This document shows, piece by piece, positions 11,620-26,104 of a DNA stretch of 64,000 nt. The stretch is taken from contig NZ_JAJQRG010000001.1 of the NCBI RefSeq assembly GCF_021228235.1, positions 558,001-622,000 of the forward strand. Reading direction: 5' to 3'. The notes beneath the pieces are model-generated. The model was not told the DNA's origin. It made no database searches and saw nothing but the letters and a program-made list of their open reading frames with translations. The position numbers and the translations under genes are program-made. The DNA is from Pseudophaeobacter flagellatus (GTDB lineage Bacteria; Pseudomonadota; Alphaproteobacteria; Rhodobacterales; Rhodobacteraceae). Position 1 is the stretch's first letter; every line of letters starts with the position of its first letter.

Positions 11620-12234
11620 CTAGAACAGGCCGGCCTCTTTGGCAGTCATCGCGGCCTGGGTGCGGTTTTTTGCATCCAGCTTGCGGCATAGGGTGCGCAT
11701 ATGCAGCTTGATTGTCACTTCCTGTAAATCCAGGTCGCGGGCGATTTCCTTGTTGGCCTGGCCTTTGCAAAGCCCTTCCAGCACCTGAAATTCACGCGGG
11801 CTGAGCTTCTCTGCCAGCGGATGGGTTGATGGTGTGGCCTCTTCCCGCATCAGATCAACCGGAACATAGACCTCTCCGGCGACCATGAAACGCACCGCAT
11901 TGAGCAGGGACTGCGCCCCCATGGTTTTGGGAATAAAGCCAATCGCCCCCAGCTTGAGCGCGTCTTGTGCGGTTTTGGCCGGAGCATTGCCGGACAGGAT
12001 GGCGACACCCTTGCCGCCATTGGCTTCGATCGCAGCGCTAAGCCCCACCAGCCCGTTCATTCCGGGCATCTGATAATCCAGCAAAACGAGATCAAACGGC
12101 CCCGCATCGCGAATTGTGCGTAAAGCCTCGTCGATGTCGGTGGCCAAAGCAACGGTCGCATCGCCTTTGCTTTCGAGATAGGCGGAGATTGTTTCGCGGA
12201 CCATATCGTGGTCGTCTGCTAGCAGGATACGCAT
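11620..12234 (-). CDS. LuxR/NarL-family response regulator
   Basis: A 204-residue two-domain regulator. The receiver spans residues about 1-120 with acidic pocket DD (7-8), phospho-acceptor Asp53 in LVLLDYQMPG, and the lysine in FIPKTMG. The C-terminal LuxR helix-turn-helix reads LSPREFQVLEGLCKGQANKEIARDL. ATG 12234 is taken because MRILLADDHD is the normal receiver start; a TTG seven codons upstream is possible. It is divergent from the PruR-like protein and hybrid kinase, making it the likely phosphorelay target. Confidence 0.93.
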   Translation of the reverse strand: MRILLADDHDMVRETISAYLESKGDATVALATDIDEALRTIRDAGPFDLVLLDYQMPGMNGLVGLSAAIEANGGKGVAILSGNAPAKTAQDALKLGAIGFIPKTMGAQSLLNAVRFMVAGEVYVPVDLMREEATPSTHPLAEKLSPREFQVLEGLCKGQANKEIARDLDLQEVTIKLHMRTLCRKLDAKNRTQAAMTAKEAGLF

Positions 12235-12625
12235 GAATTTCTGTGACCTGTTCAACTGGGTTCACTTTGAACCTACAATTAGAAGTCTTTCAATTCCATA
12301 AAGTTTTCAGGACAATTCTCTGCGCTTCTTTGTAAGGCTGACAGCCTGTGATCTGGCTGTGGTTGTTGAGCGGGGTGTTGGGCTTGGCGCTCATATATTG
12401 TGGGGTGTTCGGTGACCTTTGTAATCTGCTGAAGGTGGGGCCTTGCCCGGTCTTTCTAGGCGGTCGGATACCGGGCCTATACCGAAGGATAGGCCCGGTA
12501 TCCTGAGGCGTGGATGAGAGTTCGCGCCAGATGTGTCAGGGTTCGTGACAGATAGAGGGCTCGCTTCTGTGGTACGGCATTAGCTGGTGCGCAAACGGGG
12601 CTGCTGGAAAATTGGAGAAAGACAT
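12235..12625. other. Divergent intergenic region with a 15-bp perfect hairpin
   Basis: This is the control region between the response regulator and the PruR-like/kinase operon. GGATACCGGGCCTAT (12466-12480) pairs perfectly with 12489-12503 across an 8-nt loop, ACCGAAGG. There is no T-run on either side, so it is not a classical terminator. No gene is visible. It may be a dyad operator, an RNA structure or a mobile repeat. Confidence 0.7.
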
Positions 12626-13168
12626 ATGAAACGCTGGAAGATGTTATTTTCGTTTTCTTTTTTATGTGGCCTGCTTGGCCTGTTGGCGACTGGTGATACT
12701 GGCATGGCGCGGGCAGAGACCCAGCCCGGGCAAGAACCGGTTTTGCTGACAGTGACCCAGGAAGGGGGCGATGCGCCGCTGCTACGCCTCTCTCTCCAGG
12801 ATCTGCAGGGCTTTGACGTCGAGAGCTTTACAACGGCGACCATTTGGACAACCGGCCCGCAAGAATTTACCGGGGTGCCATTGGTGGATATCCTGGCACG
12901 GCTTCAGCAGGAACAGGGCCTCAAAACCACCAGTATCAAGGCGCGTGCGGTGAATGATTATATGGTGGAAGTGCCAGTATCGGATGCCGTTGAGGGCGGC
13001 GCGATGATTGCCTTTCAACGCAATGGTAAGCTAATGTCTTTACGTGATAAGGGTCCCTTGTGGGTGGTTTATCCCTATGACAGCGACGCCGCCTATCGCA
13101 GTGAGGCGGTCTATTCCCGCAGTGTCTGGCAACTGGATCGCCTGATTGTCGAGGCGACGCCGCAGTGA
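12626..13168 (+). CDS. Periplasmic SUOX-fold (molybdopterin-oxidoreductase-like) protein, PruR-like
   Basis: A 180-residue secreted protein. The signal peptide is LFSFSFLCGLLGLLATGDTGMARA, with cleavage near residue 32. The mature part resembles the sulfite-oxidase/pterin-binding fold: TGPQEFTGVPLVDIL, NDYMVEVPVSD, MIAFQRNGKLMSLRDKG, PLWVVYPYDSD and RSVWQLDRLIVE. It contains no cysteine after the signal, so it cannot ligate molybdenum as true SUOX enzymes do. In Agrobacterium, PruR is a protein of this kind that binds pterins and controls a membrane partner. The gene has GGAG before its ATG and is followed by the hybrid kinase about 20 nt later. A ligand-sensing partner role is inferred. Confidence 0.72.
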   Translation: MKRWKMLFSFSFLCGLLGLLATGDTGMARAETQPGQEPVLLTVTQEGGDAPLLRLSLQDLQGFDVESFTTATIWTTGPQEFTGVPLVDILARLQQEQGLKTTSIKARAVNDYMVEVPVSDAVEGGAMIAFQRNGKLMSLRDKGPLWVVYPYDSDAAYRSEAVYSRSVWQLDRLIVEATPQ

Positions 13169-16040: not shown

Positions 16041-16087
16041 TGGCTCCGGCGGTAGGGATCGAACCTACGACCAATTGATTAACAGTC
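16041..16087 (-). repeat. attL: 47-bp duplicate of the tRNA-Asn 3' part
   Basis: The 47 bases are identical to 26030-26076, the 3' part of tRNA-Asn from the anticodon loop through CCA. The sequences diverge immediately outside on both sides. No 5' tRNA half is present here, so this is an attachment-site scar and not a functional tRNA. Confidence 0.95.
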
Positions 16088-16216
16088 TCTTGTTGTGTCC
16101 GTCCATGGTTGCGAGTTATTTGGCGTGATTCTGGTTATCTATATTTAAACTAAGGAAATAATGTAAATTCCTTGCCATTGATTTGGAGGTGTTCGGTACC
16201 ATATAGTGCGGTGAGG

Positions 16217-16235
16217 TGGCTACTAAATGGCTACT
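16217..16235 (+). repeat. Left tandem integrase arm-site candidate
   Basis: TGGCTACT occurs at 16217 and again at 16228, direct and 11 bp apart. The same pair with the same spacing and orientation occurs near the right end (25942 and 25953), differing only in the two spacer bases. This is the expected layout of arm-type binding sites for a tyrosine integrase. Confidence 0.7.
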
Positions 16236-16257
16236 TTGTTAGAATTCCGGGGGGCAA

Positions 16258-17463
16258 ATGGTCCAACTATTGCTGAAAGCTGATATGGTTCGTGATCTGC
16301 CGCAGACCGATGCCGGGCAGGCGTTTTATTTCGACACTCAGACGCAGGGGCTGGGGCTTCGCGTTGGCACCCGTAAGAAAGCGTATTTTGCCGAGGGCCG
16401 CGTGGGTGGCAAGAAACGTCGTGTCACGCTGGGCAACACCGATCAACTGACCTTGGCCGATGCTCGCAAACTTGCCAAGAAAGCCGTTGCCGAGATGGTG
16501 GGAGGGACTGATCCGAACAAGGTAAAGGCCGAACAGCGGGCCAAGGGCATGACGCTGGGCGACGCTGTTGACGCTTTCTTGTCGGGCAGGGATCACAAGG
16601 CCAGCACCGCCGCCAACTACCGAAACACCCTGCGTCGGGATTTCGGGGATTGGCATAAACGGGAGCTGCGGCACATCACGCCCCAAATGACGCTGGACCG
16701 TTTCAACAAGATCATGAAGCGCACTCCCAGCGGTGCCGCTCTTGCCATGAGGACGTTTCGGAGTTGCTGGAACTATGCCCGCGAACTGACCGCCGATCAA
16801 GACGGCGTTCCGGTGCTGCACGATTGCCCGGTGCGCCGCGTGACCGCTTTGAAGTTGATGCCGAAGGCCACCCGCAGGCAAAATCATATCACCGATTTTC
16901 AGGCGTGGTTCGCGGCTATTGACGTCGCTGCAGGTCAGGCAAGATCGCACCGCCACAAGAATGCAGGCGAGAACTTCCGCGATTTTTGCGAACTGCTGGT
17001 GCGCTCTGGCTTACGCAAGTCCGAAGCAGCAAACCTTCAATGGGCTGATGTGGATTTCAAGGGTCGCACCTTTACCGTGGCCGCCGAGCGCAGCAAGAAT
17101 GGCCAACCTCTGACTCTGCCATGCAGTCTCCAAGTGCTGGAGCTGTTCCGTCGGCTCAGAGAGCGCCATGTAGAAGGGGCTTATATCTGGGGGATTGCCC
17201 CCCTTGGCGACCCACGTAAGACCTTGGTGCGGGCGAGAGAAGCGCTAGGCGAGCCGTTTAGCTTTCATGATGCACGCAGGACGTTTGCCGTGTTGGCCGA
17301 ACGGCTGAACGTGAACTATCCAAAACTGCGTCGGATGATGAACCATGCCGATAATGATGTAACTCTTGGCTATCTCGCTAGTCGTGATCCTGAGCGGCTT
17401 CGAAACGAGATGCAGATGATCAGCGACGAGATTGACCGATTGACGGACGCCGCGATCGCGTGA
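16258..17463 (+). CDS. int: Tyrosine-type site-specific integrase (Arm-binding DUF4102 type)
   Basis: A 401-residue integrase. The N-terminal arm-binding domain (about 1-100) contains GLGLRVGTRKKAYFAEGRVGGKKRRVTLG and LTLADARKLAKKA. A SAM-like core-binding domain (about 105-190) and the catalytic domain follow, with Arg in SGLRKSEAANLQW, the HxxR box HDARRTFAVLAE, and the nucleophile Tyr in NDVTLGYLAS. The enzyme recombines att sites, here the tRNA-Asn 3' part. It lies 170 bp inside attL and reads into the island, as in most tRNA-targeting islands. G-rich GGGGGGC precedes ATG 16258. Confidence 0.95.
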   Translation: MVQLLLKADMVRDLPQTDAGQAFYFDTQTQGLGLRVGTRKKAYFAEGRVGGKKRRVTLGNTDQLTLADARKLAKKAVAEMVGGTDPNKVKAEQRAKGMTLGDAVDAFLSGRDHKASTAANYRNTLRRDFGDWHKRELRHITPQMTLDRFNKIMKRTPSGAALAMRTFRSCWNYARELTADQDGVPVLHDCPVRRVTALKLMPKATRRQNHITDFQAWFAAIDVAAGQARSHRHKNAGENFRDFCELLVRSGLRKSEAANLQWADVDFKGRTFTVAAERSKNGQPLTLPCSLQVLELFRRLRERHVEGAYIWGIAPLGDPRKTLVRAREALGEPFSFHDARRTFAVLAERLNVNYPKLRRMMNHADNDVTLGYLASRDPERLRNEMQMISDEIDRLTDAAIA

Positions 17464-17531
17464 TTTTTCAAAATTAACCGGGCGTTTCCAGTCGCAATGG
17501 TGCAGGGTACGCACCACTTTGAAACCGATTG

Positions 17532-17560
17532 TTGACCAACGCACCGCAAAGGCAAATAAT
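17532..17560 (+). promoter_or_regulatory. Sigma70-type promoter upstream of the AlpA-like gene
   Basis: TTGACC (17532-17537) is separated by 17 bp from AATAAT (17555-17560). It lies about 130 bp before the AlpA-like start. A small inverted repeat, TGGTGC-N7-GCACCA (17498-17516), sits just upstream and could be an activator or repressor site. Confidence 0.6.
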
Positions 17561-17691
17561 TGCACTATCGAATGCTGCCATGGAGGGCTGCGTTCCGTCT
17601 CCGCCTTCTGCGGTGGGTCTGAGACAGTGAACGCCATTCGCAGTCACCGCGCCGCTGGCGCAATGCGAAACACTACTCCATGGAGGCCCGA

Positions 17692-17940
17692 ATGGCCCTG
17701 AAACTGAACACGACCACCCCCAAACCCGTTACCGATTTGGACATGCCTAGCCTTTCGCCCAAGCAGGTGGAAGCCATGACTGGAGGCGCGCTGACTTCGG
17801 GGCAACTCAAGACTGACCGATATGAAGCCGAACAGAACGGCACAGCGCCCAAGCTACCCTATTATCGCATGGGCTACAGGACGGTGCGCTACAAGCCTGC
17901 TGACGTGCGGTTCTACCTCGAAACGCTCAGGGTGGGCTGA
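17692..17940 (+). CDS. AlpA-like excisionase/transcriptional regulator (small winged-HTH type)
   Basis: An 82-residue basic protein. SLSPKQVEAMTG resembles the recognition helix region of MerR/AlpA-type DNA-binding domains, and the C-terminus GYRTVRYKPADVRFYLETLRVG has the usual form where the residue choice leads into the last helix. Such proteins serve as excisionases or as activators of satellite genes, and an AlpA gene next to int is typical of PICI and P4-like satellites. ATG 17692 is chosen because GGAGG lies 6 nt upstream; an ATG at 17680 has no RBS. The next gene starts 2 nt after the stop. Confidence 0.72.
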   Translation: MALKLNTTTPKPVTDLDMPSLSPKQVEAMTGGALTSGQLKTDRYEAEQNGTAPKLPYYRMGYRTVRYKPADVRFYLETLRVG

Positions 17941-17942
17941 TA

Positions 17943-18590
17943 ATGCGTAAGGACAAGCAAGCGCGGCATGACCAACTATGCCAACTCATAGGCGATCTGA
18001 CCGCAAAAGAATGCCAGATGTGCAATGGCCACAAATGGGCGCTGCGGTCTCGAAACGAATGGGCGGCAATGCTTGGCGTGTCGCCCCCCACGCTCACAGA
18101 ATTGACGAACATAGCGCCTATTCAGAAAATGGTGACGATGGGCGTGGATGATGAGACCGGAAAACCGGTGAAGGTGATGGCCCTGCGCGTCGGAGAACCA
18201 CCCACGTTGGACACGCGCGACATGGCCAACATCATGGCCAAGGCGTTCAGGAAACAGACAGGTAGGCCCGTGTCCCAGGGTGAATGGGGGATGCTGAACG
18301 GCTTGGCCGAAGATCTGCCTGATGGGTACCAGATCGACATTTTCCGGTACGTGATCACCACCGACGGTTGGCATAACTTCACGGCGATATACGCGGTTGA
18401 GATACAGCACATGATTAGCGAGGCCAAAGAAAAGGGCGAACCCACGGCCGTGTTCAAGCGGTATTACCGACACTCATCGATACGGGTTCTTCGCCTGTTC
18501 TGGATGTTCGCAGCGGACGCATACAAGGCTGCGATGCAGGAAAAGAAAAATTTTTCCGACCCCGAATACCCTTACTTTATTGACCCGTAA
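17943..18590 (+). CDS. Unknown satellite protein with N-terminal HTH-like region (possible replication protein)
   Basis: A 215-residue protein starting 2 nt after the AlpA-like gene, so co-expressed with it. The early part has a C-x2-C pair (KECQMCNGHKW) and a helix-turn-helix-like block, RNEWAAMLGVSPPTLTELTN. The remainder is helical with many aromatic residues (IFRYVITTDGWHNFTAIYAV, RLFWMFAADAYK). I do not recognise the family. In PICI-type islands this position, after alpA, commonly holds a primase/replication initiator, and a large intergenic region with inverted repeats follows. That is a positional inference only; a regulator or small terminase is also possible. Confidence 0.6.
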   Translation: MRKDKQARHDQLCQLIGDLTAKECQMCNGHKWALRSRNEWAAMLGVSPPTLTELTNIAPIQKMVTMGVDDETGKPVKVMALRVGEPPTLDTRDMANIMAKAFRKQTGRPVSQGEWGMLNGLAEDLPDGYQIDIFRYVITTDGWHNFTAIYAVEIQHMISEAKEKGEPTAVFKRYYRHSSIRVLRLFWMFAADAYKAAMQEKKNFSDPEYPYFIDP

Positions 18591-18680
18591 GGGATGCGGG
18601 GGCGATGCTGAGTGTCGAAAGGAAAGGTTGTGGCTGGGTTAAGAACTTTGCTTTTCCTATCCTGACCAACTGAACTAATA

Positions 18681-18744
18681 CCTACTATCCCTATAACTAC
18701 TTCCAAGGGGTTATGATAAAAAGAAAGGTTATAGGGACAGTAGG
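18681..18744. repeat. 17-bp inverted repeat with 30-nt spacer
   Basis: CCTACTATCCCTATAAC (18681-18697) is the inverse of 18728-18744, with one mismatch that would pair as G-T in one strand. It lies about 90 bp after the putative replication gene. Confidence 0.7.
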
Positions 18745-18927
18745 GGCCTGACCTTTGGCCAGTCCTAGCGAGACAACGAGCAGACCGGGCGGAGCAGGGG
18801 GAGGTTTCTATGTTAGAAATCGGTGTTGAGAGTAGTGTGCGTAGGGAATTTTCTCGCCGCTGACCTTGGTTGCCGAACCAAAACGAACTACAATTGTTTG
18901 CACACTTGTGATGTTAAGGTTATTTCT

Positions 18928-18963
18928 ATGTGCGTTGACGCACATGTGGATTTTCGCTATTCT
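18928..18963 (+). promoter_or_regulatory. Promoter with an 18-bp palindromic operator over its -35 box
   Basis: TTGACG (18935-18940), a 17-bp spacer and TATTCT (18958-18963) form a sigma70-like promoter. The -35 box lies within ATGTGCGT-TG-ACGCACAT (18928-18945), a perfect dyad with 8-bp arms. This is the classic geometry for repression. The target transcript is unclear because no gene starts within 500 bp downstream on this strand. Confidence 0.55.
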
Positions 18964-19160
18964 ATCCGCGTCCTGCCCGCTGCCTGTGAACATCAAATTC
19001 GAACGGCAGCGCCAGACATCCGTAATCTCCTTGTCTCGTCTGGCGGGTAGGACACACCATCAAACATCAAGGGAACCCTGCTGGGAGGGATGAGACCCGG
19101 GTATCTATCGGAGTAGGGCGGGAGTTGTTTGTCACTCTGAAAATAGCTTAGGCGTCAGGA

Positions 19161-19403
19161 CTAGACCTTCGGAATGCAGACGAAGCGGCTACCCGATTTC
19201 CCGAAGTAGAAATCCGCTTCCGCGTTGTTCGCTCTCGTGTCCTTTTTGGCCTGCGTCCATTCGGTGGTCGCCGCCTTGGCCGCATCCAAGCAATCAGCAG
19301 AAGCATCAAAAATGGTATTGCTCGGAAGCACCTCGACATGCCTATCACTCTGTAGCTTGTCAGTCGTCGCATGGACGAACACAAAAACCAGCATCCACTT
19401 CAT
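19161..19403 (-). CDS. Small secreted protein of unknown function
   Basis: An 80-residue protein read against the capsid cassette. AAGGAG lies 9 nt before ATG 19403. The N-terminus MKWMLVFVFVHA is a short signal or membrane segment. Two cysteines (SADCLDAAKAA and FVCIPKV) could form a disulfide in the mature part. I do not recognise the family. It lies between the regulatory region and the terminase gene and may be an accessory gene of the island. Confidence 0.6.
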   Translation of the reverse strand: MKWMLVFVFVHATTDKLQSDRHVEVLPSNTIFDASADCLDAAKAATTEWTQAKKDTRANNAEADFYFGKSGSRFVCIPKV

Positions 19404-19494
19404 CTTTCTCGGCTCCTTCGGAATTCAGCAATGTGTTTTGGACCCTAACAGGCACCACTTGAACGAAACAGCCTGAAACGACCACTCCAGACGA

Positions 19495-19524
19495 TTGACA
19501 TGCTGATCATCCCCTCTGCATAAT
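19495..19524 (+). promoter_or_regulatory. Promoter of the head/packaging cassette
   Basis: A consensus TTGACA (19495-19500) and CATAAT (19519-19524) are separated by 18 bp, immediately before the terminase gene. The -10 box covers the first ATG (19523), so transcripts from here would begin near 19531 and use a later start. Confidence 0.65.
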
Positions 19525-21061
19525 GGGGCATATTTTCACCGAACCAAGCCATGGAGGGCACCGGTTCCCAGAGTATTGGGACTTGTGCGCTATGGCTTTA
19601 CGGCTGGCGAAATCGACCAAGAAGACCTTCACCGCTTCGGCGGATGTTATCGCTTTGGTAGAAAGCCTCGACCAGTGGGGCCGCGAGACCTTCACTGTTC
19701 CCCACGGGATAAACAAGGGCCAGCCGTTTGGCCTAAGCTCCTTCCAGAAAAGATTGCTGGTGGCGCTGTTCAGCCGTGACATTGACGGCCCGACATTCCG
19801 AACCTTGATCTACACACTGCCCCGAAAGCTGGGAAAATCCATGCTGCTGGCGTTTTTGCTGCTGGCGTTCGTGTGCCCTGACAGCCCGGCTTACAGGGAA
19901 GGCTGCGTCGGGGCTGTCGCCGCGCCTACAGAAAAGCACTGCGGTTACGTTGCCGATCACATGTTTGCTCTGCTGGAAACAGCTGGCCGTGAAGACGAAC
20001 TACGTCGCCGCTCTGACCCGCGCCCCGGCATTCTCGAAATGCGTAACTGCAAGGTCTATCTCAGCACCGGCAGCAATTGGGGCGGGCACGGTCTGGGTCT
20101 CGACTTCGCAATCATTGATGAATGCGGCCTGATCACCAAAGGCCAAGACGAATTGATCACGGGATACTACGATGCCCTGTCGTCACGCGATGGCCAATTG
20201 ATTGGGCTGGGCACCCGTGGCGACAACCTGATTTTCAATGAAATGATCGAAAACCCTGACCCTCGAACGCATGTGATCTGCTACGGGGCCAGCAAAACCG
20301 ACGACCCCAGCGATCCAGCTACCTGGGCAAAGGCAAATCCGGATGGTGGAACTATTAAGCCACTGCGGTTTTTGAAGGATGCACACGACAAGGCATTGCA
20401 TTCGGGCAGTTTGACCGAATTCTGTGTCTGGCAACTCAACATGCCACTTTCACCAACACGGCAATTGCTGCTGGATTACCCCACGCTGACCAAAGCCTAT
20501 CGCGCCAACCCCGAGCCGATACCCGGTGAACCCGTGCATATCGGGATTGATCTGGGCGGTTCTGCGTCAATGACCGCTGCCGTCGTGGCATACGAACAAT
20601 CCGGCTTGATCAAGTTGCTGGGGGCCTTCCCCGGTGCTGATATGGACTTAATCACCCGAGGTAAGCGAGATCTTGTGGGCGACCTATGGCACCGCGCTGC
20701 TCTTGATAGTGATTTGATCGAAACGTCTGGCAGCGTGTCCGATCTGAACGAATTCCTGCCTGCCGTGGTGGATATGGTAGGTAATCATCCCGTGGCGTCC
20801 GTTTCCTGCGACCGATACCGGCAAGCCGAATTTTCCACCGCGCTGGCCCGTCAAAAGCTGGCGTGGCCCGTGATCTATCGCGGTACCGGCCCACGTGACG
20901 GTGATCAGGATATTCGCGCCACCCGCCGTCTATTCCTGTCTGGCAGTGTCAACATGGTACGCAGTGTTTTGCTGGAGGGCTCATTGGGTGAGGCTGACGT
21001 AAAGGTGAGCACCACCGGGGCCTGCCAACTCGACAAGAGCCACAAAACCGCCCGCATCTAG
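19523..21061 (+). CDS. terL: Phage terminase large subunit (HK97/lambdoid type)
   Basis: Up to 512 residues. The ATPase region shows SFQKRLLVALFS, a Walker-A-like IYTLPRKLGKSMLLA, GAVAAPTEKHCGYVAD, and Walker B FAIIDECGLITKGQDE followed by a motif-III-like LIGLGTRGDN. The nuclease half contains HIGIDLGGSASMTA and CDRYRQAEFSTAL. It packages DNA into procapsids. Because ATG 19523 lies in the -10 of the promoter at 19495, ATG 19592 may be the real start. The end, HKTARI, is abrupt for the family and the TAG overlaps the GTG of the capsid gene. No small-terminase gene was recognised. Confidence 0.9.
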   Translation: MGHIFTEPSHGGHRFPEYWDLCAMALRLAKSTKKTFTASADVIALVESLDQWGRETFTVPHGINKGQPFGLSSFQKRLLVALFSRDIDGPTFRTLIYTLPRKLGKSMLLAFLLLAFVCPDSPAYREGCVGAVAAPTEKHCGYVADHMFALLETAGREDELRRRSDPRPGILEMRNCKVYLSTGSNWGGHGLGLDFAIIDECGLITKGQDELITGYYDALSSRDGQLIGLGTRGDNLIFNEMIENPDPRTHVICYGASKTDDPSDPATWAKANPDGGTIKPLRFLKDAHDKALHSGSLTEFCVWQLNMPLSPTRQLLLDYPTLTKAYRANPEPIPGEPVHIGIDLGGSASMTAAVVAYEQSGLIKLLGAFPGADMDLITRGKRDLVGDLWHRAALDSDLIETSGSVSDLNEFLPAVVDMVGNHPVASVSCDRYRQAEFSTALARQKLAWPVIYRGTGPRDGDQDIRATRRLFLSGSVNMVRSVLLEGSLGEADVKVSTTGACQLDKSHKTARI

Positions 21062-22167
21062 TGGAAGGTGCTGAACGCGACCAGATAAAGGAACCGGAGA
21101 AGGCTGAAACCGATTTTGAGCGGGAATGCCGCAATTTCAGCCTATCGGGTCTGACTGCCAGCGTGACCGAAGGTAAACCGCTGGACGGACGCGAACTGGA
21201 AATCTCGCAGGAATTAGAACAGCGCAACGGGCCGTCGCAAAAAGGAGGCATTCAGGTGCCGTGGGCCGTGTTCGATTTAGAAGAACGCGCGGACCTGGCC
21301 ACCGATGCCAGTGCAGGCACCAGCCAAGAATTAGCGAGTCGCCCGGTGATGAACCATCTGCAACGGTTCTTTGAAACGTCGGCAGCGGCGCGGTTCGGTA
21401 TCAAAGCAATTCAGGTTTCCGGCACCCCCGCATTCCCTGAAATCACCGGGGGCGGCACCATGTCGTGGGTGGCTGAAGGTGCTGGCAGCGATGCCACTGC
21501 AATCACCACGACCAGCCAAACGCCGACTATCAAGACCGCAAATGCGCGATATGTGGTGACCCGCCAAGCGGCCAAACAGAACCCGGCGATTGAAAGCATC
21601 CTACGTCGCGATCTGGCCGAAGTCATGCGCGAGGGTATTGACCTTGCAGCCTTCCAAGGCACCGGGGCCAATGAACAGCCAACTGGCCTAGAGAACGCCT
21701 TGACCGGGGCGCGGGCGATCAACGTGTCGGACATTGCCAGCTTCACCGAACTACATTTGCGCGCAACCACCCTTTGGGAAAGCGCCAAACTGTCGGACGT
21801 TTCGGGCATCAACTTCGCGGGTGCGCCTATCCTGCGTCAAACGCTGATTGACAGCCTGATCACAGGCACTGCCGTAAGCGAATACGACCGCTTTAGATCA
21901 GCCGGATTTAGTGGCGTCTGGTCGCAACAGGTAAGCGCGCAGAGTGCCCGGGATGCCACCGGCAAAGGCGCGTCGAATGTGTACCTGTCGGCGACGGGTG
22001 GCCACGCTTTCATGCCGACATGGGGCGGCGTCGAACTAGTGATCGATCCATACAGCGAAAGCAAATCCGGCAAGATCGCGATAACTGCGTTTGCCTTTGT
22101 CGATCTGCTGTTCCAGCGCCTCAGCACCCACTTCCTGAAACTGGAAAACGTGCAGGACCGCGCATAA
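21061..22167 (+). CDS. Major capsid protein, HK97 fold
   Basis: A 368-residue phage capsid protein. The N-terminal charged helical segment (about 1-75) resembles the delta/scaffold domain removed by prohead protease. The core contains GTPAFPEITGGG, WVAEGAGSDATAITTTSQTP, AFQGTGANEQPTGLEN, FAGAPILRQTLID and a C-terminal FAFVDLLFQRLSTHFLKL. The start is GTG 21061, overlapping the terL stop as TAGTG, with only a weak RBS, so translation is probably coupled. The following protease ATG overlaps its TAA by one base. Confidence 0.9.
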   Translation: MEGAERDQIKEPEKAETDFERECRNFSLSGLTASVTEGKPLDGRELEISQELEQRNGPSQKGGIQVPWAVFDLEERADLATDASAGTSQELASRPVMNHLQRFFETSAAARFGIKAIQVSGTPAFPEITGGGTMSWVAEGAGSDATAITTTSQTPTIKTANARYVVTRQAAKQNPAIESILRRDLAEVMREGIDLAAFQGTGANEQPTGLENALTGARAINVSDIASFTELHLRATTLWESAKLSDVSGINFAGAPILRQTLIDSLITGTAVSEYDRFRSAGFSGVWSQQVSAQSARDATGKGASNVYLSATGGHAFMPTWGGVELVIDPYSESKSGKIAITAFAFVDLLFQRLSTHFLKLENVQDRA

Positions 22168-22754
22168 TGGAAAGCCGCGCCACATGGGTCGCGCAATCCC
22201 TTGAGGTGCGGCAACAGGGAGGGCGACCCACGATTGTGGGCCGCTTCCCCTATCAAGCATTGGCTGTGATCGCAGATCGCGGCACCATCAGGAAAGAACG
22301 GATCATGCCGGGGGCGTTTGACTTCACGCTGCAAGACGACACGCGGGAAGTGAATTTGCTGGTAGGTCACAGTTTCGATAAGCCGCTGGCCTCGAAAAAG
22401 GCGGGCAGTCTTGAATTCAACGACACCGAAGAATTTCTTGAGTTTAGCGCCATCATTCCCGAGGGCGCGGAACGTGCCAGCCATGTGACCGATGCGCTGG
22501 CGATGCTTGGCGCGGGCCTGATCAAAGGCGTGTCCCCCGGTTTTCGGGTGCCGCCCAAGGACGTGGTGCCCGATGCCGAAAAGCTGGTGCCTGAACCCGG
22601 AAACCCCGGAGTGATGATCCGTCAACTTGGGGCCCTGCTCCTATACGAACTGAGCCTTGTCACCCGTCCAGCCTATGAGGCTAGCGAGGCCGAATTACGG
22701 GCAATGGACCGGGCGCAGCGCCACCAACCCCAACCGAGGATATGGCTGCCATGA
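22167..22754 (+). CDS. HK97-family prohead protease
   Basis: A 195-residue serine protease (peptidase family resembling HK97 gp4/U35). It has IRKERIMPGAFDFTL, the His region LLVGHSFDKPLASKKAGSL, LGAGLIKGVSPGFRVPP and LYELSLVTRPAYEASEA. It processes the capsid N-terminal segment during head maturation. Start ATG 22167 overlaps the capsid TAA, and its TGA overlaps the next gene's ATG. It is placed after the capsid gene, whereas tailed phages usually put it before. Confidence 0.9.
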   Translation: MESRATWVAQSLEVRQQGGRPTIVGRFPYQALAVIADRGTIRKERIMPGAFDFTLQDDTREVNLLVGHSFDKPLASKKAGSLEFNDTEEFLEFSAIIPEGAERASHVTDALAMLGAGLIKGVSPGFRVPPKDVVPDAEKLVPEPGNPGVMIRQLGALLLYELSLVTRPAYEASEAELRAMDRAQRHQPQPRIWLP

Positions 22755-23311
22755 TCGACCTGCTGGAAACCGAATTCACCCATGGCGATGCCCCGTCTGA
22801 TCTGGTGGCATCTGAAATCGCATTGGAGGCTGGCGTGTCAGAGGTGGACGCTGCCGCCATGATCGCCGCAAGCTGGATACAGGCCGAGACCTTTACGAAC
22901 CGGGCATTTCGTCCGGTCACCGCCGGCAAGGTGATCATTAAAGTAAACCGTGAAGACGGATACCGCTGGCCTCGCTATCCGTACCCTGCAGATTTGGATG
23001 TTGAGGTATATCTGAACGGCATTTGGCTGAGCCATTCCGAAACCTACTTGGCCGAAGCGGGCCTTGTCGAACTGGTACCGTGGACGCTCTACCGCCTGAC
23101 CCAAGTGGGTACCGTGACGCCACCGGCTCCAACCGCCAACGTGGTGCAGGCCGTCCGAAACCTCGCTCTGTATCAACTGGTGCACATGCCCCAGCGTCGG
23201 GAATTCAAGAGTCAATCTGCTGGCGACACTAGTTTGACCCGCGAGAACTTGCAGGGCCTGTTTTGGGCTTCTGGAGCGGGCATTCTTTTAGCGAATGAGG
23301 TGCGCCAATGA
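22751..23311 (+). CDS. Head-tail connector protein, gp6-like
   Basis: A 186-residue protein with an N-terminal helical bundle (EFTHGDAPSDLVASEIALEAGVSEVDAAAMI) and a later conserved PTANVVQAVRNLALYQLVHM. These match the phage gp6-like head-tail connector (adaptor) family that docks under the portal. ATG 22751 is preferred over 22742 because GAGGA ends only 1 nt before the latter. It overlaps the protease TGA, and the portal ATG overlaps its own stop. Confidence 0.78.
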   Translation: MIDLLETEFTHGDAPSDLVASEIALEAGVSEVDAAAMIAASWIQAETFTNRAFRPVTAGKVIIKVNREDGYRWPRYPYPADLDVEVYLNGIWLSHSETYLAEAGLVELVPWTLYRLTQVGTVTPPAPTANVVQAVRNLALYQLVHMPQRREFKSQSAGDTSLTRENLQGLFWASGAGILLANEVRQ

Positions 23312-24321
23312 TTTGGCCATTCCGGAAGAAATCCGATCTGGAACAGCGCAGCGGTTTTTCCAACATGACGCAGACATACGTCGATGCGAGGCGCAAGACC
23401 TTGCAAGCGGATGGTAGTGCGGCCCTGTCTGCAACCGTCGCCACTGCCGTGGGCATGTGGTCGCGGGGCTTTACCATGATCACCCCAGCCCCAGCCGATC
23501 TGCTGACGCCTGACACTATGGGGGCCATTGGTCTTGACCTATGTCTGCGTGGTGAAAGCGTCTGGCATATCCGGGTGGAAGGCAACGTCGCCAAGCTGTT
23601 GCCCGTGGCCTATTGGGACGAACTGGGCCAGGGCCGGTATCACCTACACATTGCTCGGGTGAACACTACAGAAACAGTCAGGGCTTTGGAACCCGAGGTA
23701 CTCAAGCTGGTGATCAACCCGGCCCCCTCGAAGCCGTGGCGTGGTCGATCACCATTTACGCTCATGGGCCTATCGCCCATGTTGATGGCCGAGATTGAAG
23801 CTGCTGTATCCGGGGCCATGCCGATGGTGGGTAAGGGCTTGTTGCCGATGTCAGCCAATATCCCCGAGGAACAGCAAAGCAAGGTTTTGTCTGGGCTGCG
23901 CACCGGATCGCTAGCCACGGTGCTGAGCAAGCAAGACTTCGGCCACCAGACAGGCGGGGATCGCTCAGAACTGCGCCGGGTAGAACTAACCCCTGATCTG
24001 CAAAAGATGGACCTCAACCCGGCAACCGATGGGCTACACCACCGCATTCTGAGCGCAGCGGGCATTCCCCCGGCTCTGGTGACCGAACAGGGCAACGCAG
24101 GCGCGATGCGTGAGGCCTATCGTCTGTTTGCCTTGCAGACCCTTGAACCGATGGGGCGGCAACTCATGCCAGAGTTTCAGGCTAAGCTGAACGTGGCCAG
24201 TCTGAACCTTGACGCCATGATGAGTGCGGACACGGCAGGTCGTGCCCGATCTGTGGGCGCTCTGGTGAAAGCTGGCGTTGATCTGGAACGGGCCATGAAG
24301 CTGGTGGGGTGGACTGAATGA
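23308..24321 (+). CDS. Phage portal protein, HK97 type
   Basis: A 337-residue protein opening MIWPFRKKSDLEQRSGFSN. It contains LDLCLRGESVWHIRVEGN, WRGRSPFTLMGLSPM, a clip/stem region, and HHRILSAAGIPPALVTEQGNAGAMREAYRLFALQTLEPMG, the canonical C-terminal block of HK97-type portals. The dodecameric portal is the DNA channel and the site of terminase and connector binding. It is a little short for the family (often 380-420 residues). Its position after capsid, protease and connector genes is unusual. ATGA overlaps are present on both sides. Confidence 0.9.
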   Translation: MIWPFRKKSDLEQRSGFSNMTQTYVDARRKTLQADGSAALSATVATAVGMWSRGFTMITPAPADLLTPDTMGAIGLDLCLRGESVWHIRVEGNVAKLLPVAYWDELGQGRYHLHIARVNTTETVRALEPEVLKLVINPAPSKPWRGRSPFTLMGLSPMLMAEIEAAVSGAMPMVGKGLLPMSANIPEEQQSKVLSGLRTGSLATVLSKQDFGHQTGGDRSELRRVELTPDLQKMDLNPATDGLHHRILSAAGIPPALVTEQGNAGAMREAYRLFALQTLEPMGRQLMPEFQAKLNVASLNLDAMMSADTAGRARSVGALVKAGVDLERAMKLVGWTE

Positions 24322-24698
24322 CCCATGCCGCCAATCTGAAACGCGCCGCCCGGTTCAATCCGGTGTGGCAGGATGCCCGTATTTATGAGTATGCTCTGGA
24401 TGGCGGGGGCGCCCCGATCACAGCAGGTGGGGAATATCGCTTTGACCTACGAGAAGTCACCTACGGGTTTCGTGATCTGAAACCGGAAACTGTGTTCACC
24501 ATTTCGCAAGTATATCAGGGCGGTACAGTTGTGACACTGATCACAGAAAATTCACCCAATAGTTCGCATATCATCCTGCTAGGAAGCACATGGTATGTTC
24601 CGCAAGAGGTGCGTGCCGCTGATGCTCTGGGCGCAACTGTGTCATACATCGCCCGCGCGATGGACAGCATACCAGATATTCGGAGCGACACGCTTTGA
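24318..24698 (+). CDS. Head-closure/head-tail joining protein
   Basis: A 126-residue beta-rich protein opening MTHAANLKRAARFNPVWQDARIYEY. Its position (after portal and connector), size and strand-rich pattern (VVTLITENSPNSSHIILLGSTWYVP) suit the head-closure or stopper family. No family signature is decisive. It overlaps the portal stop by 4 nt and the next TTG start by 4 nt. Confidence 0.6.
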   Translation: MTHAANLKRAARFNPVWQDARIYEYALDGGGAPITAGGEYRFDLREVTYGFRDLKPETVFTISQVYQGGTVVTLITENSPNSSHIILLGSTWYVPQEVRAADALGATVSYIARAMDSIPDIRSDTL

Positions 24699-24958
24699 CC
24701 CCAGATCCTCAGATACCCACGGCCCCTCACGCCACCGCGACAGACGCTGAATGGCGGGAATATCTGGGTGACCTGTTAGACCTCGCAAGTGATCAAGGCG
24801 TGACCGCTCTAAAGATGCAAGGTTTCACGGATCAGGAATTGTTCCAACTCAGGCGATTGGCCACTGCGTACAGATCGGGCAAGGGTACTGTTGAAGACCT
24901 ACAGTCCCTGCGCCAGATCGCAGACAAGTTGGAGCCAAGATGCCAGATTGTGACCTAG
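24695..24958 (+). CDS. Small protein at the end of the capsid cassette, unknown function
   Basis: 87 residues from TTG 24695, which overlaps the previous TGA, with CGGAGC about 9 nt upstream. It is helical and acidic: DAEWREYLGDLLDLASDQG, LKMQGFTDQELFQLRRLATAYRSGKG. It could be an accessory head protein, a tail-completion-like adaptor or a redirecting factor; no family was recognised. Its stop TAG and the stop of the reversed cargo gene share the palindrome CTAG (24955-24958). Confidence 0.6.
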   Translation: MTPDPQIPTAPHATATDAEWREYLGDLLDLASDQGVTALKMQGFTDQELFQLRRLATAYRSGKGTVEDLQSLRQIADKLEPRCQIVT

Positions 24959-25812
24959 AAAGGGATTTCGTCAAACACTACATCAAGATCGACACGAGTT
25001 GGAAACATGCCTTCTGCGGTTGATATCTGGACAACCATAAAACCTTGTGCCCTATAGATTTCTCTAGGTTCGACACCTCCATCCCGATACTTCCGCCAAA
25101 AACTTGTTTCCAGTTCACATCTAATTTGGGTCCAAGCGCCGGGTGCAAGCCGGTTCGTACTTGTTGCCAGGATGTGCCTTCTCTTTAAGTTTTCATCGTC
25201 AGATTTCGTATGGCCGCAACGTTTTCCATCTTGTTTGATCTCCCACCTTTCCGAGGTATTCAGGTATATCGCGTCGATCTCAGGGCTACGCTTTTCCGTT
25301 CTGTTGTGGATGTCTATTACAAGCTCGAAAGTTCCTGTTCGGGCGAACTCGCTCATAGTCAGCAATTCGTTCTGGGCTTTCACATTGACTTCGAACGTAA
25401 CAGTTTTTCTACGTTCCAGCTCCGACTTAACCCAATCGATGTCCTCACCCAACATCCTTTGGAGATCCGTAATTGACCCATTGTAAACTAGGTGGCGGTG
25501 ATGCTTCAAATCGAAAGGAATGTCATTTGCTTCTTGGGTGATAAGGGTGCAGATCTTTTCCTTCGCATGAGCGTATCCGACTTCGTAGAAAACATTGGGG
25601 TTTTTTCCCGTCATATCGGCGATTATAAAGTCCGCCGCATCGATCTGGCGGTAGATGCGTTCCAGAATGCTCTCAGTGTAAATCTGCTCGTCAACCCGCT
25701 CTGCGACGACGCCGTGCTTGTTTGCCGTTTCTTGGATGCCGATCCGATAGATGTCATTAAACTCATTGCCGAACGGCATCAGCACGAACGCGAACGGTTT
25801 TGGTTTCGTCAT
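24955..25812 (-). CDS. Cargo protein with nucleoside 2-deoxyribosyltransferase/TIR-like N-terminal domain
   Basis: A 285-residue protein. Residues about 6-125 form a Rossmann-like domain with AFVLMPFGNEFNDIY, SILERIYRQIDAADFIIADMTGKNPNVFYEVGYAHA, LITQEANDIPFD and HHRHLVYNG. These blocks are shared by nucleoside deoxyribosyltransferase-like and TIR-like NAD-targeting proteins, often annotated as nucleotide-binding. The C-terminal 150 residues are beta-rich and unrecognised (VFDEIPF end). It is reversed relative to the head cassette and adjacent to attR, the usual cargo slot of satellites, where anti-phage genes are frequent. A defence role is inferred, not shown. Confidence 0.7.
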   Translation of the reverse strand: MTKPKPFAFVLMPFGNEFNDIYRIGIQETANKHGVVAERVDEQIYTESILERIYRQIDAADFIIADMTGKNPNVFYEVGYAHAKEKICTLITQEANDIPFDLKHHRHLVYNGSITDLQRMLGEDIDWVKSELERRKTVTFEVNVKAQNELLTMSEFARTGTFELVIDIHNRTEKRSPEIDAIYLNTSERWEIKQDGKRCGHTKSDDENLKRRHILATSTNRLAPGAWTQIRCELETSFWRKYRDGGVEPREIYRAQGFMVVQISTAEGMFPTRVDLDVVFDEIPF

Positions 25813-25941
25813 AATACGTCCATTTTGCTAGTTGTGCCCAAAATGCGAGCATTCGTGATTATACAGGCGCTTTCTTACATTCTGTCAATGAATTCAACTT
25901 TGTTGGCCAGAGGTTCGAGGTACGTCAATGCAGTATTTGGC

Positions 25942-25960
25942 TGGCTACTATGTGGCTACT
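25942..25960 (+). repeat. Right tandem integrase arm-site candidate
   Basis: TGGCTACT occurs at 25942 and 25953, direct and 11 bp apart. It matches the left pair at 16217/16228 in orientation and spacing, with only the two spacer bases (TG versus AA) differing. Confidence 0.7.
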
Positions 25961-25992
25961 AGCTTGGATGTGTTCGCAAGGATCTAAAGTCA

Positions 25993-26028
25993 AAAAAGCC
26001 ACCAAGCTATTGAGCTTAGTGGCTTTTT
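25993..26028 (-). terminator. Island-encoded terminator now serving tRNA-Asn
   Basis: AAAAAGCCACCAAGCT (25993-26008) pairs with AGCTTAGTGGCTTTTT (26013-26028) with one internal mismatch. On the minus strand it ends in a run of T. It lies immediately downstream of the reconstituted tRNA-Asn and inside the island, replacing the terminator left at 16003. Confidence 0.8.
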
Positions 26029-26029
26029 A

Positions 26030-26104
26030 TGGCTCCGGCGGTAGGGATCGAACCTACGACCAATTGATTAACAGTCAACTGCTCTACCGCTGAGCTACGC
26101 CGGA
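26030..26104 (-). tRNA. tRNA-Asn (GUU), rebuilt at attR
   Basis: A complete 75-nt cloverleaf on the minus strand with encoded CCA. The acceptor TCCGGCG pairs with CGCCGGA, the discriminator is G, the D-arm is GCTCAGCGGTAGAGC, the anticodon is GTT in the loop CTGTTAA, and the T-arm is GTAGGTTCGATCCCTAC. The 47 bases at the 3' end are duplicated at 16041-16087, showing that the island supplies the 3' part. Confidence 0.97.

Follow-up and report, generated by a model that had tools for sequence, protein, structure and literature searches.

A probably disabled copy of a capsid-forming phage satellite in Pseudophaeobacter flagellatus and a family of related tail-less islands

The island and its insertion site

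We analyzed a 64,000-nucleotide stretch of the Pseudophaeobacter flagellatus genome (contig NZ_JAJQRG010000001.1, positions 558,001 to 622,000), here called the window, in which a ~10-kb island with phage-type head genes is inserted at a tRNA-Asn gene. Coordinates are window positions, and features lie on the plus strand unless noted otherwise. An exact 47-bp direct repeat (16041-16087 and 26030-26076) encloses the island. The left attachment (att) site, attL, is a partial copy of the tRNA-Asn 3' end, and attR lies within the intact tRNA-Asn gene (26030-26104, minus strand), which was the sole Rfam match at E-values up to 0.1. The unit is 9,989 bp long. Between the repeats, an integrase gene and two small genes are accompanied by a head cassette and a single cargo gene. 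An initial annotation, made from the letters alone, had proposed these boundaries and an integrase, both of which stood; the cargo gene goes beyond its description. The reading that we consider quite probable is that this island is a disabled copy of a phage satellite of the kind that forms its own capsids.

The tRNA-Asn gene and its right-hand neighbor, presumably a metallo-hydrolase-like gene, were matched in 12 of 12 genomes of the genus, the window's genome included. The site is island-free in seven of the 11 other genomes, the remaining four having no resolved site. In four of the seven, 0.15-0.62 kb separates the end of a kinase gene from the tRNA (0.15 kb in the window, with the island excluded), and in three the left-flank DNA directly abuts the tRNA. 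Comparison of this site among related strains, which the initial annotation had suggested, thus identifies the island as an insertion, since the left neighborhood adjoins the tRNA in seven of the 11 other genomes and the capsid gene was found in none of the 11. The att core of the window island recurs in five other loci (L047, L051, L052, L053 and L130).

Head genes and the deletion between them

The head cassette opens with a truncated TerL, the large terminase (19523-21061), recognized by a hidden Markov model (HMM) match and by alignment with relatives and with phage HK97. Next come a major capsid protein of HK97 fold (21061-22167; HMM match and relatives), which has a GTG start and has lost ~54 N-terminal residues, and an S78 prohead protease (22167-22754; Pfam, 1.9e-16). 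The following product (22742-23311), a head-tail protein assigned to the connector by its position, had no Pfam or PHROG match, and is kept in all nine islands of the close clade described below. The portal (23308-24321) matched Pfam at 4.3e-9, below the cut-off, and PHROG at 1.4e-4, and its cluster occurs in all 34 islands delimited below. A 126-amino-acid protein in the adaptor position (24318-24698), its role again given by position, is present in nine of nine close islands, and an 87-amino-acid protein (24695-24958), with a counterpart in several relatives, has a weak PHROG connector match (0.087). As initially annotated, no tail or lysis match was found among the window island proteins scanned by HMM. 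The HK97-type head and packaging cassette is likewise borne out for TerL, capsid and protease by HMM, and for the portal by a sub-threshold match, but it is not "unbroken" as had been thought, ~0.67 kb being missing.

Comparison with relatives places the missing DNA at a joint at 21058-21061. In an IMG/VR relative (L033; TerL 70%, capsid 88%), extra DNA between TerL and capsid comprises ~29 more TerL residues, a gene that we take from its sequence pattern to be an HNH gene, and the start of the capsid gene; Thiosulfatihalobacter marinus (L042, TerL 73%) has the same extra DNA. Among 31 loci tabulated, all 28 relatives that span the joint have TerL to at least residue 511 of 514, then HNH, then a capsid that aligns from residue 1, and the window copy has none of the TerL end, the HNH gene and the capsid start. 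The 28 leave out L207 and L209, contigs with no TerL, and include L043, despite a stop at its capsid codon 13. Across the order, 51 of 52 capsid matches start within the first two query residues, the window alone starting at residue 54, and the residues lost from the window capsid are strongly conserved in relatives. The window TerL stops one residue short, the first lost residue aligning with D471 of HK97, which makes up the TerL nuclease center with D302 and D388 (PMC9410871). An aspartate aligned with D471 is present in 33 of 35 TerL rows, HK97 included; it is missing from two, the window and L110, the latter having no residue aligned there.

The 9,989-bp unit and the missing 0.67 kb together make ~10.7 kb, and close relatives measure 10.4-11.2 kb. 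The window groups beside the intact L042 in the capsid tree, and the deletion is accordingly derived. The 1-nt overlap of TerL and capsid is, judging from the relatives, the scar of this deletion. Overlaps of 1-4 nt had been taken initially as a sign of intactness, and tidy gene overlaps are evidently no proof of an intact cassette. Nor is the satellite "complete," as was also claimed: it is missing the TerL end with the aligned catalytic aspartate, the HNH gene and the capsid N-terminus.

A family of tail-less islands

A scan of species genomes with a TerL alignment, in which the best 80 of 152 relatives were kept, gave a close clade of 12 loci at 46-73% identity, with Rhodobacterales names, followed by a gap down to 33% or less. 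Seven of the 12 named close-clade loci have a repeat, L049 (19 bp) being left out of the 34 islands counted below. The att-bounded islands of this clade lie at tRNA-Asn, tRNA-Pro and tRNA-Thr genes, and one lies at tRNA-Tyr with a 19-bp repeat only. The search for att repeats allowed ~5 to 20 kb between copies. Among 49 loci of at least 15 kb in the distant group, 25 have repeats of at least 19 bp bounding 9,317-10,859 bp (median 10,304). L104 was retained as an island although its repeat has no called tRNA gene, and the 24 loci not taken as islands include L069, with an 18-nt repeat, and L088, with a 28-nt repeat away from any tRNA. We had considered the L057-L118 group (TerL 25-33%) as ordinary prophages and dropped this assignment, as there are att-bounded islands of 9.3-10.9 kb among them.

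The resulting 34 att-bounded islands (nine close, 25 distant) measure 9.3-11.2 kb and come from many genera and nine tRNA types. Capsid, protease and portal are present in all 34, as is TerL (by selection), and HNH is present in 33, the sole exception being the window. The distant clade contains adaptor and head-closure genes. Members of the capsid family were found in 45 of 390 genomes of the order, at 52 places, counted by capsid match with the islands not all delimited. In the capsid tree the island capsids fall into two clades (support 100/99 and 93/87), apart from five sampled phage capsids. We found no tail or lysis family in the close clade (47 open reading frames, ORFs; best 25 of 41 PHROG families and all 14 of 14 Pfam families) or in the 25 distant islands (144 ORFs; best 25 of 68 PHROG families), and four tail and neck proteins of a tailed prophage on host contig C26 had no match among the island ORFs. 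Where visible, the relatives do not run on into tails, and the annotators' view of the island as belonging with capsid-forming satellites, rather than being a tailed prophage cut short, is upheld.

Some family members differ from the rest. L044 (Cypionkella aquatica) has an independent deletion near its position 12928, which fuses the capsid at about residue 366, out of frame, to the end of the portal; the protease and connector are gone and the cos-like element described below is retained. A third family copy that looks damaged is L043 (Pseudotabrizicola alkalilacus), whose capsid gene (11823-13091) carries the stop at codon 13 mentioned above. Phaeobacter marinintestinus has islands of both clades, L051 at tRNA-Asn core repeats and L081 at tRNA-Phe, and another integrase adjoins the Asn island, which suggests tandem elements. 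Three metagenome contigs labelled Gammaproteobacteria and Chloroflexi (L054-L056) carry TerL relatives at 29-32%, and from these sequences the kind may extend beyond the Rhodobacterales. Between HNH and capsid, some islands have an extra protein of 164-178 amino acids, presumably "gp10-like," and a further protein (L047 6161-6652, L049 11837-12370); these are absent from the window and had no matches in 71 other loci.

A conserved element upstream of TerL

A conserved cos-like element precedes TerL in the window (19061-19138), with the core AAGGGAACCCTGC at 19069-19081 and a later TCGGAG, as judged by motif count, alignment and profile. The sequence GGGAACCCT is found upstream of TerL in 23 of 30 loci examined, three duplicates included. 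For the element alignment these duplicates (L048, L123 and L128, copies of L036, L043 and L050) were taken out, and the 20 aligned copies show AAGGGAACCCTGCC, ~25 variable bases and then TCGGAG. A profile recovered sequences outside its build (L047, 4e-8; L126, 1.1e-7; G246, 0.0012), matched only weakly in L046 (0.052) and L202 (3.3), and did not find the element in L052, L130 and L204. It had no match below 0.01 in 148 other loci (1.93 Mb), a control set that includes many second-clade islands and is not made up of phages throughout.

The paired pattern occurs once in the host's 4.29 Mb, with zero occurrences of the reversed control, and on 15 contigs of a viral collection, nine of them family members; the other six encode no family protein in the stretches available. 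When two mismatches are allowed, the window contains two copies of the core, and chance predicts 2.03; the loose core alone is thus uninformative, and the weight lies in its exactness and its place in many relatives. The position before TerL and the near-palindromic core suggest a cos site, putatively that of the window's clade; the distant clade presumably uses another packaging sequence.

Integration, regulation and replication genes

The tyrosine integrase (16258-17463; 401 amino acids; PHROG phrog_1 7.2e-50, Pfam 1.8e-15) is a full-length, unbroken open frame in which we located what we take to be the tyrosine-recombinase motifs, and it would presumably support excision. The next gene (17680-17940) encodes a small helix-turn-helix protein of AlpA/excisionase type. 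This assignment, made initially as AlpA-like, holds at the level of the family alignment, in which seven of 11 members match PF12728 (HTH_17), and not for the window's own protein, which has no match; it is 28-67% identical to the other ten aligned members. An AlpA-type regulator is a feature of phage-inducible chromosomal islands (PICIs).

The adjacent gene (17943-18590) encodes a winged-helix DNA-binding protein and is, like its neighbor, without an HMM match of its own at 0.01 or better. Folded alone, the protein gave a mean predicted local distance difference test score (pLDDT) of 48.7, and that model was not used; a model built with seven relatives reached a pLDDT of 83.7 and a predicted template modeling score (pTM) of 0.56, with weak matches in the PDB (best E 0.015, CtsR). 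A few counterparts have PHROG replication-initiation matches, at most three of 16 per family. From the alignment, the model and these matches we predict that it is probably a replication initiator, a TerS-like role (TerS being the small terminase) being the alternative. Winged-helix proteins occur in the close clade; some distant-clade islands have primase/helicase or initiator genes. Two features lie 3' of the winged-helix gene: an inverted repeat, CTACTATCCCTATAAC / GTTATAGGGACAGTAG (18682-18743), read from the sequence and in part common to L042, which is a possible origin or operator, and a 21-nt palindromic TATGTGCGTTGACGCACATGT (18927-18947), 20 of 21 positions identical in L042, which is a candidate operator/promoter or origin.

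Possible helper and cargo

A conventional tailed prophage on host contig C26 (L041) is a possible helper; it encodes TerS, TerL, portal, capsid, neck, tail terminator, major tail and tape measure proteins. A phage-like element on contig C7 (L040) has an endolysin and an integrase adjoining tRNA-Leu. Ten distant-clade ORFs are relatives of the C26 head-closure protein (best 7.1e-25), which fits shared tails for the distant clade. Profiles of the window's clade run against the 71 other loci gave no match for the two adaptor-position proteins and 11 for the connector, so no helper is suggested for that clade. The cargo gene (24955-25812, minus strand) encodes a TIR/nucleoside-deoxyribosyltransferase-like protein (PADLOC TIR, 1.4e-10; Pfam 1.6e-5, below the cut-off) in a region of low GC content (0.47 at 25001-26000), and by these matches it is possibly an anti-phage effector carried by the satellite.

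Interpretation and alternatives

Intact members of the family would be excised from the tRNA gene by the integrase and the AlpA-type factor and replicated through the winged-helix initiator. Capsid, protease, portal and connectors would build a small HK97-type head, TerL and HNH would cut and package unit-length ~10-kb DNA at the island's own cos-like site, and a helper phage would supply tail and lysis. The window copy would have lost the TerL end, HNH and capsid start most simply by one deletion. It is probably still able to excise, integrate and be replicated but, because of these losses, would probably need the lost proteins from another element to build heads of its own and fill them.

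Several points weigh against the reading of the island as a disabled satellite. The remaining head genes keep open frames, and in all six genes compared between the window and L042 third codon positions differ most, so that selection acted on the other head genes over most of their divergence. The TAGTG at the joint could permit reinitiation, and the deletion, known here from assembled sequence, could be an assembly error. For the family, rare tail genes could be present in PHROG families below rank 25. Two TerS queries found no match in the 2048 ORFs of the 34 islands, which leaves the initiation of packaging unexplained. TerS is likewise absent from the PHROG families listed for both clades, and one L059 protein has a weak TerS match (0.007) ranked below its replication-initiation matches.

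If the deletion were harmless, TerL and the shortened capsid would still work and the island would be a functional minimal satellite. The open frames, the GTG that overlaps the TerL stop and the absence of other visible damage are what one would then expect, but the lost capsid residues are those retained in 51 of the 52 matches and the alignment leaves one of the three nuclease aspartates without a counterpart in TerL, and we think this very unlikely. Rather less far-fetched, though still unlikely, is that the satellite has given up its packaging genes and rides in the heads of an intact satellite or phage, keeping its att and cos sites. There is no visible lesion in the integrase, the AlpA-type gene, the winged-helix gene or the cos-like element; L044, with a different head-gene deletion, also retains the element; and co-residence does occur, as in Phaeobacter marinintestinus. 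However, TerL and capsid searches found no second satellite in the window's genome, the remaining head genes were kept, and such deletions are seen in only two of 29 TerL-bearing rows.

We reject two further explanations. Decay of a tailed prophage to its head genes might account for HK97-type genes and for the damage in the window, L044 (capsid end to portal end) and L043 (capsid codon 13), but it is improbable given the same tail-less cassette in 34 att-bounded islands within 9.3-11.2 kb in many genera and nine tRNA types, and given the two well-supported capsid clades apart from the phage capsids; the L042 capsid matches a phage collection at 25-29% (best 15 of 20 records). A gene transfer agent (GTA), or a fragment of one, would suit a host of Rhodobacterales type and HK97-type head genes, but hardly an element with its own integrase and att sites, island-free sites in relatives and no tail genes. 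The GTA gene order, compared here by description, also differs from that of the island, and we give this idea almost no weight.

We return, then, to the disabled satellite. A wider proposal, which we put forward tentatively and as somewhat short of probable, is that these islands form a lineage of their own within the Alphaproteobacteria, made up of minimal satellites that form capsids, divided into two clades and having a capsid gene that occurs in roughly one of every nine genomes sampled from the order. They would package single ~10.3-kb genomes by means of TerL and HNH, no classical small terminase taking part, into some of the smallest tail-bearing HK97-fold heads; in the window's clade, packaging would start from a cos site specific to that clade. 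Damaged copies may ride on intact ones. The interest rests on the family more than on the window copy: a recurrent, narrowly sized Rhodobacterales family would bring capsid-forming satellites to ecologically important marine bacteria and offer very small HK97-type heads, and possibly a TerS-less cos system, for study. Isolated hosts in which a helper could be sought include Thiosulfatihalobacter, Ruegeria, Phaeobacter and Mameliella.

Comparison with known systems

Our literature search, which left subscription papers mostly outside its scope, found no report of such satellites in the Rhodobacterales. Capsid-forming PICIs (cf-PICIs) are described as integrated islands with their own capsid, protease, portal, connectors, TerL and HNH that use helper tails (PMC10690885), and are reported primarily from Enterobacteriaceae, Morganellaceae, Pasteurella and several Firmicutes (PMC10803314). 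The island family resembles cf-PICIs such as EcCIEDL933, by description rather than by sequence comparison with a reference cf-PICI, in being integrated and in having its own head, TerL and HNH set, known here from genes, with helper tails as the likely counterpart. The window island integrates site-specifically by its own integrase and has an AlpA-type regulator and, among its proteins scanned, no tail or lysis genes. It differs in its size (~10 kb, against a reported cf-PICI mean of 14 kb) and its host, which is outside the list in PMC10803314, and in that no TerS was found and the copy is damaged. As a complete capsid set and a large terminase with HNH were looked for, and the capsid N-terminus is missing, TerL truncated and HNH absent, we do not class the window copy as a cf-PICI; in the family as a whole, dependence on a helper is a prediction and the two TerS queries had no match. 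The island would work, or once have worked, like a cf-PICI, its membership being unproven.

The Streptomyces satellites MulchRoom and MiniFlayer likewise have their own capsid and packaging genes, but, compared by description, they encode TerS and a scaffold and live in Streptomyces hosts (PMC10690885). Phage-inducible chromosomal minimalist islands (PICMIs) are small marine satellites with an integrase and an AlpA-type gene (profiles PF05930 and PF12728 are named for the PICMI model), but in PMC10803314 they are described as having no capsid-remodelling genes or identifiable packaging genes. We considered the "Charybdis" elements (PMC12324425) and judged them unrelated, as they are 4.6 kb long with no HK97 capsid, and the parts of PMC8682789 examined describe other small prophages in coral bacteria and nothing like the window island. 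The islands share with HK97 and other cos siphophages their TerL (HK97 26% identical to the L042 protein; PDB 6z6d, 8.9e-27) and an HK97-type capsid, and HK97 also encodes an HNH endonuclease, which promotes cos cutting (PMC9410871). The gene order sets them apart: in HK97 it is TerS-TerL-portal-protease-capsid followed by tails, whereas the islands run TerL-HNH-capsid-protease-connector-portal with no tail.

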